Source of the DNA: Victivallales bacterium
Lineage (GTDB): Bacteria; Verrucomicrobiota; Lentisphaeria; Oligosphaerales; Oligosphaeraceae
Direction of reading: 5' to 3'
Length of the DNA: 5,481 nt
Assembly: GCA_017963875.1 (NCBI GenBank)
Contig: JAGCTA010000540.1
Location: 1-5,481, forward strand
Shown here one piece after another: positions 1 to 5,032 of this stretch (the stretch's first letter is position 1; each line of letters starts with the position of its first letter). The notes below the pieces were generated by a model. That model was not told where the DNA came from, did no database searches, and worked only from the letters and a program-made list of their open reading frames with translations. Position numbers and translations under genes: made by a program.

Positions 1-165
1 ATGAATTCCGCCGTTGAAGCCATTGTTGACCTTGTCTCTCCTGGCTGGAATGAACTGGCGAAACGTGCAAAGGACATTGGCAGCGCCGCTGTTTTCTGCA
101 TGCTTGTGCTGTTCTGGGGCAGTTGGCTGTTTATTATTTTGAAGATGTTTGTGTGGACGAACTGA
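1..165 (+). CDS. dgkA: Diacylglycerol kinase DgkA, C-terminal part (5' truncated by window edge)
   Basis: Integral-membrane kinase that phosphorylates diacylglycerol to phosphatidic acid in the inner membrane, recycling lipid left by membrane-derived oligosaccharide or LPS modification. Frame 1 is open from the first base to TGA at 163-165 and gives 54 residues. It begins NSAVEAIVD and continues ELAKRAKDIGSAAVF, matching the conserved C-terminal half of E. coli DgkA (NSAIEAVVD, then ELSGRAKDMGSAAV). The Asn and Glu of NSAVE correspond to E. coli Asn72 and the catalytic Glu76. A final hydrophobic segment (about residues 31-50, FCMLVLFWGSWLFIILKMF) is the third membrane helix. The ATG at position 1 is most likely an internal Met, because the family is about 120 residues and the first two helices are missing. 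The stop overlaps the ATG of the MATE gene by one base (TGATG), so the two are probably cotranscribed. Confidence 0.93.
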   Translation: MNSAVEAIVDLVSPGWNELAKRAKDIGSAAVFCMLVLFWGSWLFIILKMFVWTN

Positions 166-1529
166 TGGGCAATTCCTTTGTAAATTCAAATGTTCTTTTT
201 TCAAATCGCGATTTGCGGCGATTGATTGTGCCATTGGCGATTGAGCAGTTGCTATGGCTGTCAGTCGGTCTGGCGGACACGATGATGGTGTCTTCCATCG
301 GAGAGGCTTCAATATCGGGTGTTTCGCTGATTAATATGTTGAATTCGTTCATGTTCTACATATTCGCGGGCATTGGCACAGGTGGTGCCGTGGTGGCGTC
401 GCAATTCCTTGGGGCTGAGCAAGATGACAAGGCTAGAAATAGCGCAAAACAGCAATTGATGGTGACGCTTGTTATTGGTTTCGCAATTCTTATGTATTGT
501 GAAATAAGTTGCGACTGGACCATACGGCTGATATATGGCGAACTTCCGCCCGATGTGATGAAGGCCGCGCACACGTATTTTCAGATTACGGCATTTTCGT
601 TTCCCATGATGTCGATTTACAATAGTTGTGCGGCGTTGTTGCGTTCACAGAGCAAATCCATGTATTCGCTGTACAGTTGTGCCTTGAGCAATGTCATCAA
701 TATCGTTGGAAATTCATTGTTCATTTTTGTCTTGAAGTACGGTGTAGCGGGGGCTGCATGGGCGACGGTGATGGCGCGTGGCATCTCGATGCTGTTCATG
801 GTATTCCTGTTGACAAAACGCCAGAACAGGATTTATCTGTCATTCAGGGAGCGTTGGAAAGTGGACTGGGGAGTCATAAGAAGAATCCTTCATATTGGAA
901 TTCCCAGCGGGGTTGAGAGCAGCGTGTTTACGTTGGGGCGGCTTTTGGTGACGGGCGTGATTGCCGCGTTCGGAACATCGCAACTTGCGGCGAACTCTGT
1001 GGCGAACACAATGGATTATCTGTCATGCATGGCTGGAAATGCCTTCAGTCTTGGCATTATCACAGTAGTCGGGCAGGCTGTCGGGCGTGCAGATGTGGAT
1101 CTGGTTCGATTCTATATTTGGAAGATGATGAAATGTGCTTGTCTTTTCCATTTTCTATGGGGACTTATCGTATTTGCAGTAACGCCGCTGTGCATGAGTT
1201 TATACACACTGACAGACGAGACGCGTCATCTGGCGTTGATTCTGATAGCAATCCACAACGGACTTGGACTCGTCCTGTGGCCATGGTCGTTTGTTTTCCC
1301 GAACGCCTTGCGTTCCACAAATGATGTTCGTTTCATCATGTTCTGGTCAATCGCCTCGATGTTCGTGGTGCGTGTCGGCATGAGTTACATTTTCGGCGGC
1401 ATCCATTTTCTCGCTTTAGGCGCGATTGGCGTATGGATGGCGATGGTGTTAGACTGGCTGACTCGAATTACAGGTTTTCTATGGCGGTACCATAGCGGTG
1501 CTTGGCGCAAACTGATGTTTGAAAAATAG
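165..1529 (+). CDS. MATE-family cation-coupled efflux transporter
   Basis: A 454-residue inner-membrane exporter of the multidrug and toxic compound extrusion family, which uses Na+ or H+ gradients to expel organic cations, drugs or metabolites. Length and hydrophobicity fit the usual 12 helices. The N-terminal half carries LIVPLAIEQLLWLSVGLADTM, with a helix-1 Pro (23) and an Asp (38) in the place of the conserved NorM helix-1 Asp, followed by GTGGAVVASQFLGA. The C-terminal half repeats the pattern at about 243 (HIGIPSGVESSVF) and in ITVVGQAVG, as expected for the internal duplication. I chose ATG 165 because it overlaps the dgkA stop (TGATG), has GGA seven bases upstream and leaves a normal short cytoplasmic N-terminus. 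The in-frame TTG at 123 would lie deep inside dgkA. The substrate cannot be read from the sequence. Export of the product of the downstream ketosynthase genes is possible, but linkage to dgkA is physically tighter. Confidence 0.93.
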   Translation: MGNSFVNSNVLFSNRDLRRLIVPLAIEQLLWLSVGLADTMMVSSIGEASISGVSLINMLNSFMFYIFAGIGTGGAVVASQFLGAEQDDKARNSAKQQLMVTLVIGFAILMYCEISCDWTIRLIYGELPPDVMKAAHTYFQITAFSFPMMSIYNSCAALLRSQSKSMYSLYSCALSNVINIVGNSLFIFVLKYGVAGAAWATVMARGISMLFMVFLLTKRQNRIYLSFRERWKVDWGVIRRILHIGIPSGVESSVFTLGRLLVTGVIAAFGTSQLAANSVANTMDYLSCMAGNAFSLGIITVVGQAVGRADVDLVRFYIWKMMKCACLFHFLWGLIVFAVTPLCMSLYTLTDETRHLALILIAIHNGLGLVLWPWSFVFPNALRSTNDVRFIMFWSIASMFVVRVGMSYIFGGIHFLALGAIGVWMAMVLDWLTRITGFLWRYHSGAWRKLMFEK

Positions 1530-1617: not shown

Positions 1618-1622
1618 AAGGA
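1618..1622 (+). promoter_or_regulatory. Ribosome binding site of the lipoyl-domain gene
   Basis: AAGGA lies eight bases before ATG 1631 and is the clearest Shine-Dalgarno in the window. It fixes the start of the lipoyl/E3-binding protein. No comparable site precedes the ketoreductase domain at 2225, which suggests translation was meant to begin here for both parts. Confidence 0.7.
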
Positions 1623-1630
1623 TTCAGACG

Positions 1631-2140
1631 ATGAGCGATGTGACAATTGTTGAATTGCCGAAATTATATGAGAACATGGATGAGGCGACCATTGGACCGT
1701 GGCAAGTCCAACTTGGACAGAGGGTGGCGGCTGGAGATGTTCTTGTTGAACTCATTACTGACAAAACAGTCGTGGAATTCGAGGCCCCCGTCGCAGGAGT
1801 CGTCTTGAAAATCTATGGCATTGAAAAAAGCACAGTGCCTCATGGCTATGCGCTTTGCGCCATTGGGGAGGATGGGGCGAGCGCGCCTGATTTGAGTGCT
1901 GAGAACGAGGCGAAAGTCGCGGCGCATCTTCGTGCCAATGCGGTGGAGGGTGCCATAGACGTGACTAGTTTGATGGGGACGGCTTCCAGTAGCGCTGAAA
2001 GCAAACCTTCATATCGTGCGGCACCAGCCGCAAAGGCGTTTGCACGTGCACAGAATGTGGATTTGGCTGCAGTGGCGGCTTTCTGCGGTCGTGACATGAT
2101 TCACAGAAAGGATGTCGAGGATTATCTTGCATCGAAATAA
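1631..2140 (+). CDS. Lipoyl domain plus E3-binding domain protein, no E2 catalytic domain
   Basis: A 169-residue protein resembling the N-terminal half of a 2-oxoacid dehydrogenase E2 subunit. Residues 3-79 form a lipoyl domain: LPKLYENMDEATIGPW matches the E2 start (PxLGENMxEGTIxxW), and ELITDKTVVEFEAPVAGVV carries the lipoylation-type DK, with Lys45 the expected attachment site. Residues 128-166 match the peripheral-subunit-binding domain (YRAAPAAKAFARAQNVDL ... HRKDVEDYL), which in E2 proteins docks E1 or E3. The roughly 230-residue acyltransferase domain is absent. Instead, after TAA 2138-2140 the same frame runs through an Ala/Pro-rich linker into a ketoreductase, so this may be the first part of a split or interrupted fusion. 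The start is set by AAGGA eight bases upstream. A biotin carrier is the alternative for the first domain, but DK instead of MKM and the attached E3-binding domain argue for lipoate. The role in this locus is unknown. Confidence 0.88.
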   Translation: MSDVTIVELPKLYENMDEATIGPWQVQLGQRVAAGDVLVELITDKTVVEFEAPVAGVVLKIYGIEKSTVPHGYALCAIGEDGASAPDLSAENEAKVAAHLRANAVEGAIDVTSLMGTASSSAESKPSYRAAPAAKAFARAQNVDLAAVAAFCGRDMIHRKDVEDYLASK

Positions 2141-2224
2141 GACGCATCGCCTGCCGTCGAATCCGTAGCCACGTCCAGTGCGCCTGCCGTTGTTCAGGCT
2201 ACTGCGCCTGAATCCGCCGTTGAA
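2141..2224 (+). other. In-frame, stop-free Ala/Pro/Ser/Val-rich linker between the two domains
   Basis: After the TAA, the frame of the lipoyl gene reads 28 codons without a stop, and these encode repeated Ala, Pro, Ser, Val and Glu (for example DASPAVESVATSSAPAVV). This is the composition of the flexible linkers that follow E3-binding domains in E2 proteins. It joins directly, in the same frame, to the first beta strand of the ketoreductase. No ATG or GTG, and no Shine-Dalgarno, is seen in it. I read it as protein-coding sequence of an original lipoyl-E3-binding-ketoreductase fusion, either separated recently by one nonsense change or still translated by readthrough. Confidence 0.65.
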
Positions 2225-2968
2225 TTGAATCCATCGGTTCGCGTGGCGCTTGTGACTGGTGCCACGGGAGGCATCGGGCAGGCGATTGTCCGACGGCTGG
2301 CGGCAGAGGGCATTGCCGTGGCAATCCACTATCACAACGATGGCAATGCCGCTGAGGCGTTATGCTCGGAGATAAGGGGGAATGGTGGTGTGGCAGAAAA
2401 ATTCCTGGCCGATTTGGGTGCGCCTGGAGCCAGCCAGGCTTTGGCGACGGCTGTCGAGCAAAAGTTCGGTCGAATTGATATTCTCGTTAACAACGCAGGA
2501 TGCCTTGCCGACGGCATGGTGGCGTTTACTTCAGACGAACAATGGTTCAAGGTGTTGAATCTGTGCTTGACAGTGCCTTTTGAACTGATTCGCGCGTGCA
2601 GCATGGGCATGGCACACCGACGGTGGGGGCGAATCGTCAATATGTCCTCCGACGCAGGGCGCATGGGAAGCGCAAACAGAAGCAATTATTCTTCCGCAAA
2701 GGAAGGATTGTGCGGGTTGACTCGTTCGGTCGCGCTGGAACTTGCAGGCATGGGGGTACGCGTTAACGCCGTCAGTCCAGGCTTTATTGACAGCCCGATG
2801 ACGGCTGTGATTCCAGAGACTCGGCGACGCGAAATTGTCAAAAGCATCCCTGTCCATCGCCTTGGAAAGCCGCAGGATGTGGCGGAAGTCGTCGCGTTTC
2901 TCTGTTCAGACAAGGCGGACTACATTACAGGACAGGTAATTTCAGTCAATGGCGGACTGTGTATGTGA
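2225..2968 (+). CDS. FabG-like 3-oxoacyl-(ACP) reductase, SDR family
   Basis: Short-chain dehydrogenase/reductase of the FabG type, expected to reduce a beta-ketoacyl thioester to the beta-hydroxyacyl form with NAD(P)H in the cytoplasm. Counting from TTG 2225 (247 residues), the cofactor motif TGATGGIG is at 11-18 and NNAG at 89-92. The catalytic set is Asn112, Ser142, Tyr155 and Lys159 (YSSAK), then VRVNAVSPGFI and the FabG-like end ITGQVISVNGGLCM. The fold is complete. The start is doubtful: TTG 2225 and GTG 2243 are the only nearby candidates, neither has a Shine-Dalgarno, and there is no ATG. The frame is open upstream back to TAA 2138 and continuous with the lipoyl-domain gene, so the true product may be a fusion. 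It ends in tandem TGA TAA. The ketosynthase gene follows within 12 or 21 bases, so the two likely act on the same chain, as ApeQ does with the aryl-polyene ketosynthases. Confidence 0.88.
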   Translation: MNPSVRVALVTGATGGIGQAIVRRLAAEGIAVAIHYHNDGNAAEALCSEIRGNGGVAEKFLADLGAPGASQALATAVEQKFGRIDILVNNAGCLADGMVAFTSDEQWFKVLNLCLTVPFELIRACSMGMAHRRWGRIVNMSSDAGRMGSANRSNYSSAKEGLCGLTRSVALELAGMGVRVNAVSPGFIDSPMTAVIPETRRREIVKSIPVHRLGKPQDVAEVVAFLCSDKADYITGQVISVNGGLCM

Positions 2969-2980
2969 TAAAATTGGATT

Positions 2981-4894
2981 GTGACAACTATGGCATATAA
3001 AATCATCGGAATGGGGTTGGTTTCCGCCATGGGCGGAAGCGTTGACGAGGTTTTCAAGGCGATGTGCGGCGGCGGCGATGCTTTCCGTGAATTGACGCGT
3101 TTTGATTCGACTCCTTACGCACAACGCCACGGAGGGCAACTCGACGATGCTCTTGAGGATGAATTGCGTGCGGAGTTCCCCGATGACGACATTGCCATCG
3201 CCATGATGAAACATGCGGGAAACGAATGTGTCCACACGGGAAGCGTGGATGCCAATGGCACGACGGGACTGGTCCTCGCAACGAATTTTGGACCGATGGA
3301 GACATTGGAATGGGCGTGGCGAGAACGATTTGACACTGGCACGCTAGACGAGGCTAGTTACAGCCAGTTTGCCCATGTCCTTGATATTGTCGGTGATTAT
3401 TTCAAATGCAATGGCCCGCGCGTTCAACTGTCCATGTCATGCGCGTCGGGTGCCGCCGCCGCAGCCGTCGCTTCCGACATGATTGCCTCTGGCCGTGCCA
3501 GGCGCGTGCTGGTTTTGGCATACGATGCGTTGACGGAATACTGCTGGTGCGGGCTGAGCAATCTGCATACGATTACCACGGATACCATGAGACCTTTCGA
3601 TGTCAAGCGAAGTGGCACGTTATTCAGCGAGGGTGCCGCCGCAATGATGCTCGCGCATGAAGATGATGATGGCAAGCCGCTTGCATGGCTGGCGGGTTCG
3701 GCGACTAACAACAACGCATACCATATTACAGCACCGCGCAAGGAAGGCGAAGGGTCTAGGCAGACGATGGCGGCGGCTTTGAAGAAGGCGGGATTGTCTC
3801 CAGAAGATATTGGGCATATCTGTGCCCATGGTACTAGCACGCGTGCAAATGACGAAACGGAGGCGGGTGCTTTCAGAAATCTGTTTGGAAATCATCTGGC
3901 GGATATGACGGCCGTTGCGCACAAGTCGCAGTTGGGGCATCTTCTGGGGGCGGCTGGCCTGGCGGAGGCTGTTATTACTATGAAATCCATGGAGACGGGT
4001 GTCATTCCTCCGACGCTTCGGTTGGAAAACCTTGATTCGGCTTGCCATGGCGTCAATATGATGTCCAATACCAACGTCCATTCCGTCACGTCTGCCGTGA
4101 CAAATTCTGCGGGCATTGGCGGAAACAATGCCTCGTTGGTCTTGACGACGGACAAGCCGTCTGTGGTTGGCGGTTCCATGCCGACCATAAAGCGGCTTTA
4201 TGTGCGTGGCCTGAGTTGGATTTTGCCACAGAACATTGGCTGCGGACGCGATTTCATTGACCATTCCGAGTGGCTGGCAAACGATGGAAGAGGGTTGGAA
4301 GGGTTTAGCCCAAGAAGTTATGTGTCTTCAGTGAAGGGGTATCTTGACCCCGCAGGCGCATACATGCTTTCTGCCTTCAGCCTGCTTAAGAAAGGCGAGG
4401 AGAACTCTGGCTTCAATGAGCGTTGCGGCATTGCCACAATGACTCGGTTTGGTGCATGCAAATCCGCCTATACGTTTTTTGAACAACTCGCGACCAAAGG
4501 TGCGCGCTTTGCCAGCCCGATGATTTTCCCGCATGGATATGCAAATACCGCAGGCAATCTTGCGGCAATAGAGTTCGGCTGTTGCGGCCCGCATATAGTG
4601 TTTTACGGGGAGCAGAATCCCGTTGAACTGCTGGAATTTGCAGCGGAGCGTTTCCGTCACGATGAGGTGGACGAGATGCTTCTGGGCTGCTATGAGGCGA
4701 CGGTACCTACCGCGCTTCCAGATGGCTGGAAGGTGTTGAATGGCGCGATTGGTCTGAAAGTGGCTGCCAAACCTTCAGAAGATGATCTATTTGTCATAGA
4801 CCTGGCTCAGTTGCAGCTTGGTGTCCCACAGAATTCAAGCGGGGCTGTCGATGCGTTCGGCAGTATGCTGCTCAAGGCATTGATGCGGTTGTAG
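2981..4894 (+). CDS. Fused beta-ketoacyl synthase and chain-length-factor-like protein
   Basis: A 637-residue protein (from GTG 2981) that should extend an acyl thioester by decarboxylative condensation. Residues 5-391 are a complete FabF-like ketosynthase with the nucleophile Cys154 (SMSCASGAAAAAV), His283 (CAHGTST), and Lys315 and His320 (HKSQLGHLLGAAG), ending NSAGIGGNNASLVL. Residues about 404-637 begin a second thiolase-fold unit (LYVRGLSWILPQ ... FPHGYANTAGNLAAIEFG) that stops after the N-terminal half. Its nucleophile position reads GEQNP, placing Gln545 where Cys would be, as in type II PKS chain-length factors (TEQ). It resembles the short chain-length factor (ketoacyl-synt_2 type) that pairs with the ketosynthase in aryl-polyene systems, here joined in one chain. 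ATG 2990 is in frame and may be the real start: GGA lies 11 bases before it but only 2 before GTG 2981. No strong Shine-Dalgarno is present, so coupling to the ketoreductase 12-21 bases upstream is likely. Confidence 0.9.
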   Translation: MTTMAYKIIGMGLVSAMGGSVDEVFKAMCGGGDAFRELTRFDSTPYAQRHGGQLDDALEDELRAEFPDDDIAIAMMKHAGNECVHTGSVDANGTTGLVLATNFGPMETLEWAWRERFDTGTLDEASYSQFAHVLDIVGDYFKCNGPRVQLSMSCASGAAAAAVASDMIASGRARRVLVLAYDALTEYCWCGLSNLHTITTDTMRPFDVKRSGTLFSEGAAAMMLAHEDDDGKPLAWLAGSATNNNAYHITAPRKEGEGSRQTMAAALKKAGLSPEDIGHICAHGTSTRANDETEAGAFRNLFGNHLADMTAVAHKSQLGHLLGAAGLAEAVITMKSMETGVIPPTLRLENLDSACHGVNMMSNTNVHSVTSAVTNSAGIGGNNASLVLTTDKPSVVGGSMPTIKRLYVRGLSWILPQNIGCGRDFIDHSEWLANDGRGLEGFSPRSYVSSVKGYLDPAGAYMLSAFSLLKKGEENSGFNERCGIATMTRFGACKSAYTFFEQLATKGARFASPMIFPHGYANTAGNLAAIEFGCCGPHIVFYGEQNPVELLEFAAERFRHDEVDEMLLGCYEATVPTALPDGWKVLNGAIGLKVAAKPSEDDLFVIDLAQLQLGVPQNSSGAVDAFGSMLLKALMRL

Positions 4895-4953: not shown

Positions 4954-4980
4954 CTCTAAAATCTCTAGAATCTCTAGAAC
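4954..4980. repeat. Three tandem 9-base repeats, consensus CTCTAGAAT
   Basis: The units are CTCTAAAAT (4954-4962), CTCTAGAAT (4963-4971) and CTCTAGAAC (4972-4980), differing from one another at only one or two bases. Two contain TCTAGA. A further TTCTAGAAC follows at 4988-4996. The 9-base spacing is close to one helical turn, which suits cooperative binding of a regulator, although replication slippage alone could also have made it. Confidence 0.7.
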
Positions 4981-5014
4981 TTAGCCATTCTAGAACCTCA
5001 AGGAAACCTAAGTA

Positions 5015-5020
5015 TATAAT
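5015..5020 (+). promoter_or_regulatory. Candidate -10 box (TATAAT) for the transporter gene
   Basis: A perfect TATAAT lies within AAGTATATAATTTTC. The -35 region at the right distance is poor (TAGAAC at 4991-4996, 18 bases upstream, three of six matches) and lies inside a TTCTAGAAC motif. The start point would fall inside the palindrome at 5019-5032, giving a leader of roughly 175 bases. A weak -35 overlapped by repeats would suit a regulated promoter. Confidence 0.35.
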
Positions 5021-5032
5021 TTTCTAGAAAAT
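5019..5032. promoter_or_regulatory. Perfect 14-base palindrome ATTTTCTAGAAAAT, possible operator
   Basis: The sequence equals its own reverse complement over all 14 bases and is centred on CTAG, the same core as the three TCTAGA motifs upstream. It begins within the TATAAT box and covers the expected transcription start, a typical place for a repressor site. The binding protein is unknown. Being AT-rich, it could also arise by chance, but the shared core with the upstream repeats argues against that. Confidence 0.4.

Follow-up and report, generated by a model that had tools for sequence, protein, structure and literature searches.

Within 5,481 nucleotides of contig JAGCTA010000540.1 (Victivallales bacterium, assembly GCA_017963875.1), hereafter the window, two consecutive open reading frames, a lipoyl/E3-binding module and an SDR-type reductase, are separated by a single TAA. 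The locus raises two questions: whether these frames are one broken gene or two genes, and what a ketoreductase (KR) would do on a lipoyl arm, where the E2 subunit of a 2-oxoacid dehydrogenase has its acyltransferase domain. The features of the window are collected in Table 1.

Table 1. Features of the window (positions in the window; aa, amino acids; PSBD, peripheral subunit-binding domain; KS, ketosynthase)
Feature	Position	Strand	Basis or remark
dgkA tail	1-165		
MATE transporter	165-1529		
Shine-Dalgarno-like AAGGA	1618-1622	+	Eight bases upstream of ATG 1631; sequence
Lipoyl/E3-binding ORF, 169 aa	1631-2140	+	Ends in TAA 2138-2140
Lipoyl domain, residues 7-78	1649-1864	+	Pfam Biotin_lipoyl
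Lipoyl-acceptor lysine K45 in TDK	1763-1765	+	D-K in all of the best 120 homologues
PSBD (E3-binding), residues 125-169	2003-2137	+	Profile of 13 relatives
In-frame TAA breaking this copy	2138-2140	+	Sense residue in all of the best 120 homologues
Ala/Pro/Ser/Val-rich linker, residues 171-203	2141-2239	+	Alignment; least conserved part
SDR ORF, 247 aa, TTG start	2225-2968	+	Frame shared with 1631-2140
KR domain (SDR, FabG-like), residues 204-445 and stop	2240-2968	+	Pfam, alignment
Ketosynthase gene, 634 aa	2990-4894	+	Next after the SDR ORF
KS part with Cys-His-His	2990-4147	+	Alignment
Shortened CLF-like second KS part, without active-site Cys	4160-4894	+	Alignment with the full-length CLF-like genes found in relatives
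SNF-type transporter, start only	5201-		

The original prediction, made from the sequence of the window, took both ORFs as one reading frame. Its coordinates were exact: the two ORFs share a frame and are separated by the TAA, and the 28 codons 2141-2224 are indeed open and rich in Ala, Pro, Ser and Val. The AAGGA motif was found where it had been announced, ahead of ATG 1631, and no Shine-Dalgarno-like stretch precedes TTG 2225, GTG 2243 or GTG 2252, in line with the claim that the reductase has no ribosome site of its own. The open linker by itself is weak evidence, because about half of the base shuffles of 2141-2224 (50.5% of 10,000) are stop-free as well. The case for one gene is instead comparative, because the full-length relatives are uninterrupted. 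A protein search with the stop read as X and taking proteins of 245-780 aa scored 7,997 proteins, of which 7,929 matched at E 0.001; the 120 best of these matches are 425-542 aa long, all contain both the lipoyl and the SDR Pfam domains, and all have a sense residue in the column of the stop. Short split relatives are absent from this list because of its length window, which was not applied in the locus and 288-genome searches described below. Homologues of about 445 residues, to which the original prediction had pointed, do exist: the nearest (P0002) has 445 aa, is 96% identical, and agrees with the window in 85/85 residues of the lipoyl domain and 46/46 of the PSBD and, downstream of the stop, in 27/33 of the linker and 237/242 of the SDR, so that no decay is seen behind the TAA. 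Furthermore, 27 loci from named genomes comprised 22 with the fusion, four with the SDR only and one with residues 1-37 only, at a contig end; a single open frame spans the match in 22/22 fusion loci, three of which (L001, L016 and L017) are cut by a contig end. Two separate genes, the arrangement that would speak against a fusion, were met only in distant relatives, and every close relative seen is fused.

With a sense residue at the stop column in each of the best 120 homologues and an open frame in all 22 loci, the TAA is either very recent or a sequence error, and positions 1631-2968 are, on this comparison, almost certainly one gene (lipoyl-PSBD-linker-KR) broken by this single stop. Of the three explanations originally offered for the TAA, a recent nonsense change and a sequence error stand. 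The third, a functional split or readthrough site giving short and long products, is highly improbable: split products might work, given that the two parts are separate genes in distant relatives, but the sense residue in those 120 homologues, on which readthrough as a conserved trait was rejected, the 22 open frames and the lack of a ribosome site upstream of the KR all speak against it. If the TAA is real, this copy would make only the 169-aa lipoyl-PSBD part; internal initiation could conceivably yield a KR, though nothing supports this. The break in this copy is ordinary, and the wider finding is the gene set to which the fusion belongs.

Regarding the anatomy of the fusion, the Pfam scan of the window gave 43.8 bits for Biotin_lipoyl (cut-off 22.1) and 203.2 bits for adh_short_C2 (cut-off 27), and E3_binding reached 19.7 bits with the window sequence alone, under its cut-off of 23.7. 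A PSBD profile built from 13 relatives matched E2 subunit-binding domains among the solved structures, with a best E of 6e-4 (20 rows up to E 1, of which 18 are subunit-binding and two are not). Besides, an N-terminal profile of 11 fusions aligns with that of 18 stand-alone lipoyl-PSBD relatives over 162 columns (E 2.7e-41), and in one stand-alone protein, that of locus L077, E3_binding scores 37.6 bits, over the cut-off. Among the best 120 of the 7,929 homologues, the lipoyl D-K is kept in all and the PSBD is well kept, as are the SDR catalytic residues Ser (120/120), Lys (120/120) and Tyr (119/120). Two or three tandem PSBD copies lie between the lipoyl domain and the KR in P0010, P0012 and L018:8001-9629. 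No match to the E2 acyltransferase catalytic family was found by Pfam in either the lipoyl/PSBD or the SDR part; as originally claimed, the KR occupies the place of the acyltransferase domain of E2. The window SDR scores 262.4 bits with the FabG model TIGR01830, under its cut-off of 297.75, and the fusion stays below this cut-off in 7/7 fusion genomes. A role of the lipoyl-KR as housekeeping FabG is unlikely because 6/7 of these genomes have another FabG over the cut-off, G006, where the fusion is the best TIGR01830 match, being the exception.

Named matches to the fusion are mostly from Lentisphaerota (Victivallales, Oligosphaera and others), with one Verrucomicrobia and one uncultured bacterium record, and ten fusions, with open frames of 445-518 aa and no internal stop, were found among 288 genomes of the phylum. 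A phage gene was considered and set aside, no relative having turned up in a single scan of viral contigs. The fusion forms one branch both in the KR tree (21 rows, support 96/100; L016, L017 and L019 are left out, as are three of six FabG comparison rows, whose chosen ORFs gave no SDR match) and in the lipoyl tree (21 rows, support 100/98), and the AU test is compatible with a clade uniting the fusion and stand-alone forms but does not establish it (p-AU 0.505 in the KR tree and 0.327 in the lipoyl tree). According to gene calls from a simple ORF caller, which are rough, the fusion lies next to a KS in 6/22 loci (L004, L006, L009, L011, L019 and L022; a small ORF intervenes in L011, and L004 and L019 are near-copies) and next to a giant protein in 2/22 (L007 and L020); another 6/22 lie within about 340 bases of a contig end, and the remaining 8/22 have other neighbours. 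Outside these 22 loci, the window and L079 have a KS beside the fusion and L081 has the giant protein. In none of the loci seen do E1alpha/E1beta genes adjoin the fusion, and the window has no E1, ACP or giant protein. Other genes flank the fusion-KS pair of Oligosphaera ethanolica (L019:11613-15861, minus strand), namely an aldolase II-SDR fusion and a pair of tubulin/FtsZ-like and FtsA-like genes.

In the window and in L004, L006, L019, L022 and L079 the KS is fused to its shortened CLF-like part; L009 and L011 encode the two separately. Alignments read by eye show Cys-His-His in 7/7 rows of the KS and, in a separate alignment, no Cys at the active-site position in 7/7 rows of the CLF-like part, which is the composition of a type II PKS KS-CLF pair: a Cys-His-His KS with a Cys-less KS-like partner. 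Past the ketosynthase gene, an AT-rich stretch of the window contains four copies of CTAGAA (4965-5029).

The lipoyl-PSBD part also exists without the KR. When the 288 genomes were searched with it, 11 stand-alone ORFs (open frames of 154-199 aa, one of 243) came next in score after the 10 fusions, all above the first E2-sized match. The resulting set of 21 genomes was bounded after the scores were known, at the fusions plus short ORFs down to E 2.7e-19, leaving out weaker short ORFs (G254:C280, G114, G279, G107:C67 and G059). In a protein search over the range of 88-280 aa, the best 120 of 169 stand-alone relatives have 155-193 aa, and those named are from Verrucomicrobia, Kiritimatiellia or Kiritimatiellae, plus one Pacebacteria and one Armatimonadetes. 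In 11/11 stand-alone loci the lipoyl-PSBD ORF has the giant protein (called at 1,736-2,232 aa) as its immediate neighbour, a KR lies within two genes in 10/11 (L073 is the exception), KS together with E1alpha/E1beta is present in 5/11 and a CLF-like gene in 4/11; no E2 acyltransferase was seen in the stand-alone loci with the gene set. The run in L077 reads giant protein, lipoyl-PSBD, KR, KS, CLF-like, E1alpha, E1beta, GT2, ACP, hydrolase. Elsewhere the set is split otherwise, as KS-CLF-GT2-ACP in L117, as giant protein-E1beta-E1alpha in L114, and with E1 near GT2 in L108-L110. Downstream in L101 are glycosyltransferases, a MurJ-like flippase and a Wzy_C ligase, and L102 has similar genes, which suggests an envelope polysaccharide locus. 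The giant protein gave only weak 3-keto-disaccharide-hydrolase or DUF6250-like Pfam matches (L068-L078, L007 and L081), which speaks against a polyketide synthase, and 8/12 of those examined have a hydrophobic stretch near the called N-terminus. A check for aryl-polyene clusters found no dehydratase among the chosen neighbours scanned.

Of the 288 genomes, 24 have the giant protein (E up to 1e-40), 22 the KS (E up to 1e-55), 21 the lipoyl module and 20 all three, under thresholds chosen after the scores were known and with only the top few candidates per genome scored. All KS and lipoyl genomes fall within the 24 giant-protein genomes, among which G266 and G268 have no KS match and G118, G266 and G291 no lipoyl module match. 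The genomes are probably kin, so that this co-occurrence is not independent evidence and hypergeometric values overstate it. E1alpha, at E up to 1e-70, was found in 46/288 genomes, including all 24 with the giant protein. In an E1alpha tree of 47 rows, 24 rows form one branch (support 97/93), which comprises 22 of the 24 giant-protein genomes plus G005 and G007, the E1alpha of G206 and G264 not being included in the tree; outside it fall the second E1 genes of G001, G005 and G066 and the E1 genes that adjoin E2. An E2 lies in the fetched flank of 0/24 rows on the branch versus 11/23 outside rows (19 chosen loci and four others), with flanks that vary in length and some contigs that end early. 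G002 has the fusion and the KS, and an E1alpha of this branch kind was not found in it. The E1 subunits of L077 match pyruvate-dehydrogenase models, with 369 bits for TIGR03182 (cut-off 393.85) and 398.9 for NF006667 (cut-off 321); the substrate of such an E1 may be pyruvate or a different 2-oxo acid. In two other genomes, E1alpha/E1beta pairs adjoin short lipoyl-matching ORFs, of 93 aa at L122:4773-5054 (G221) and of 88 aa at L123:1355-1621 (G059), perhaps another E2-less arrangement.

Taken together, the anatomy, the neighbours and the E1 tree lead us to propose, as a tentative reading that is plausible rather than probable, an E2-less 2-oxoacid dehydrogenase whose lipoyl arm would feed a KS/CLF-KR pathway. 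In this model, (i) the dedicated E1alpha/E1beta, of pyruvate-dehydrogenase type and using ThDP, would decarboxylate a 2-oxo acid and acylate the lipoyl arm at K45, (ii) the PSBD would dock E1 or E3, (iii) the arm would hand the acyl group to the cysteine of the ketosynthase, either directly or via ACP, and not to CoA, because no E2 acyltransferase accompanies the system, (iv) the KS and its CLF-like partner would condense it with malonyl-ACP, (v) the KR, held in one complex with the arm by the fusion, would reduce the 3-oxoacyl product, and (vi) E3, where present, would re-oxidise the arm. The acyl product might be destined for a glycan or glycolipid of the envelope, because GT2, ACP and hydrolase genes adjoin the set in some relatives.

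Cofactor supply bears on this proposal. LipA is present in 23/27 genomes and an LplA-type ligase in 9/9 tested, including the four in which LipA was not found; the fusion is present in three of these four (G210, G229 and G234). Given these enzymes, lipoylation of the module would be possible. E3 was matched in 26/27 genomes, in 25 over the cut-off. The exception is G234, in which neither E3 nor LipA was matched and the fusion is the sole lipoyl match at E up to 1e-6, which leaves two readings, an incomplete draft or a system that works without E3.

Binding of E3 or E1 is an established property of PSBDs, and the broad presence of E3, together with an ordinary fused E1-E3-E2 operon in G001 (L100), fits a different explanation: the lipoyl-PSBD could be an accessory arm of ordinary 2-oxoacid dehydrogenases, like E3BP or protein X, or could dock the KR to E3 and NADH, with no acyl group for the KS. 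We consider it possible though rather unlikely; it is difficult to reconcile with G234, which, in a draft that may be incomplete, keeps the fusion, the KS and E1alpha and has no E3, LipA or other lipoyl match at the above threshold, and with the 5/11 loci where the stand-alone form adjoins a KS and its own E1.

FabH is over the cut-off in 20/27 genomes, and in Lentisphaerota the E1 genes do not adjoin the fusion. Both observations would suit a lipoyl-KR working with a KS-CLF primed by ordinary acyl-CoA or acyl-ACP, the lipoyl domain being a relic or scaffold and the orphan E1 serving something else. This we regard as improbable, since the D-K is kept in all of the best 120 homologues with the PSBD well kept, E1 lies within the same locus in 5/11 stand-alone cases, and the E1 branch has no E2 partner. 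FabH is unevenly distributed: it is over the cut-off in 13/14 genomes without the fusion and in 7/13 with it, gives only weak matches in G002, and has no match at E 1e-30 in G003, G170, G210, G229 and G234 (5/13 fusion genomes), drafts that may be incomplete. Within the E2-less dehydrogenase model, a direct handover of acyl groups from the lipoyl arm to the KS, that is, a CoA-free priming that might replace FabH in the FabH-negative Lentisphaerota, is conceivable but doubtful.

Among the open-access PMC papers listed, none describes the fusion or the gene set in its title or in the beginning of its abstract, and no report of transfer from a lipoyl arm to KS or ACP without an acyltransferase domain was found there. 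If the proposed mechanism is true, lipoyl and acyl carrier protein, two textbook swinging-arm systems, would be joined in one pathway, offering a testable case of CoA-free priming and a function for a gene set that is present in 20 to 24 of the 288 sampled genomes of the phylum and whose members currently carry names such as FabG, FabF or E2 fragment.

Among the nearest known systems, SclQ1-4 of scleric acid and QncN/QncL/QncM load a glycolyl unit by means of an E1-like pair, a lipoyl protein and an ACP, and an acyltransferase domain on the lipoyl protein aids acyl transfer to the ACP (PMC6335953). The likeness lies in a single gene set that combines ThDP-binding and pyrimidine-binding subunits of E1 with a lipoyl protein and an ACP, and in the assembly on a lipoyl arm, here as a proposal, of an acyl group destined for a biosynthetic carrier. 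The E1 pair, lipoyl protein and ACP come together in L077 and L075, and not in the window. The systems differ in that the acyltransferase domain is theirs, whereas here there is none and, in Lentisphaerota, a ketoreductase stands in its place. The set described here also includes a PSBD and a KS-CLF pair, and its E1 matches pyruvate-dehydrogenase models.

AmcF-AmcG (KS-CYF) of cispentacin biosynthesis likewise pairs a KS with a reduced CLF-like partner that has no Cys, alongside an ACP; there the starter is loaded by the adenylating enzyme AmcH (PMC10698177). The main text of that paper does not contain the terms lipoyl, Verrucomicrob or Lentisphaer. The matches found here differ in staying under the curated cut-offs: the window KS scores 170.6 bits over the whole length of the AmcF model (cut-off 325) and higher, 225.2 bits, with FabF (cut-off 493.75), and the ACP of a relative matches AmcB best, with 66.9 bits (cut-off 80). 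With FabG, the window KR shares the SDR fold and the Ser-Tyr-Lys catalytic residues, and differs from it in the attached lipoyl-PSBD and in not reaching the TIGR01830 cut-off. Finally, the E2 of 2-oxoacid dehydrogenases resembles the fusion in the order of its lipoyl domain, linker and PSBD, but continues into an acyltransferase core where the fusion has a ketoreductase.
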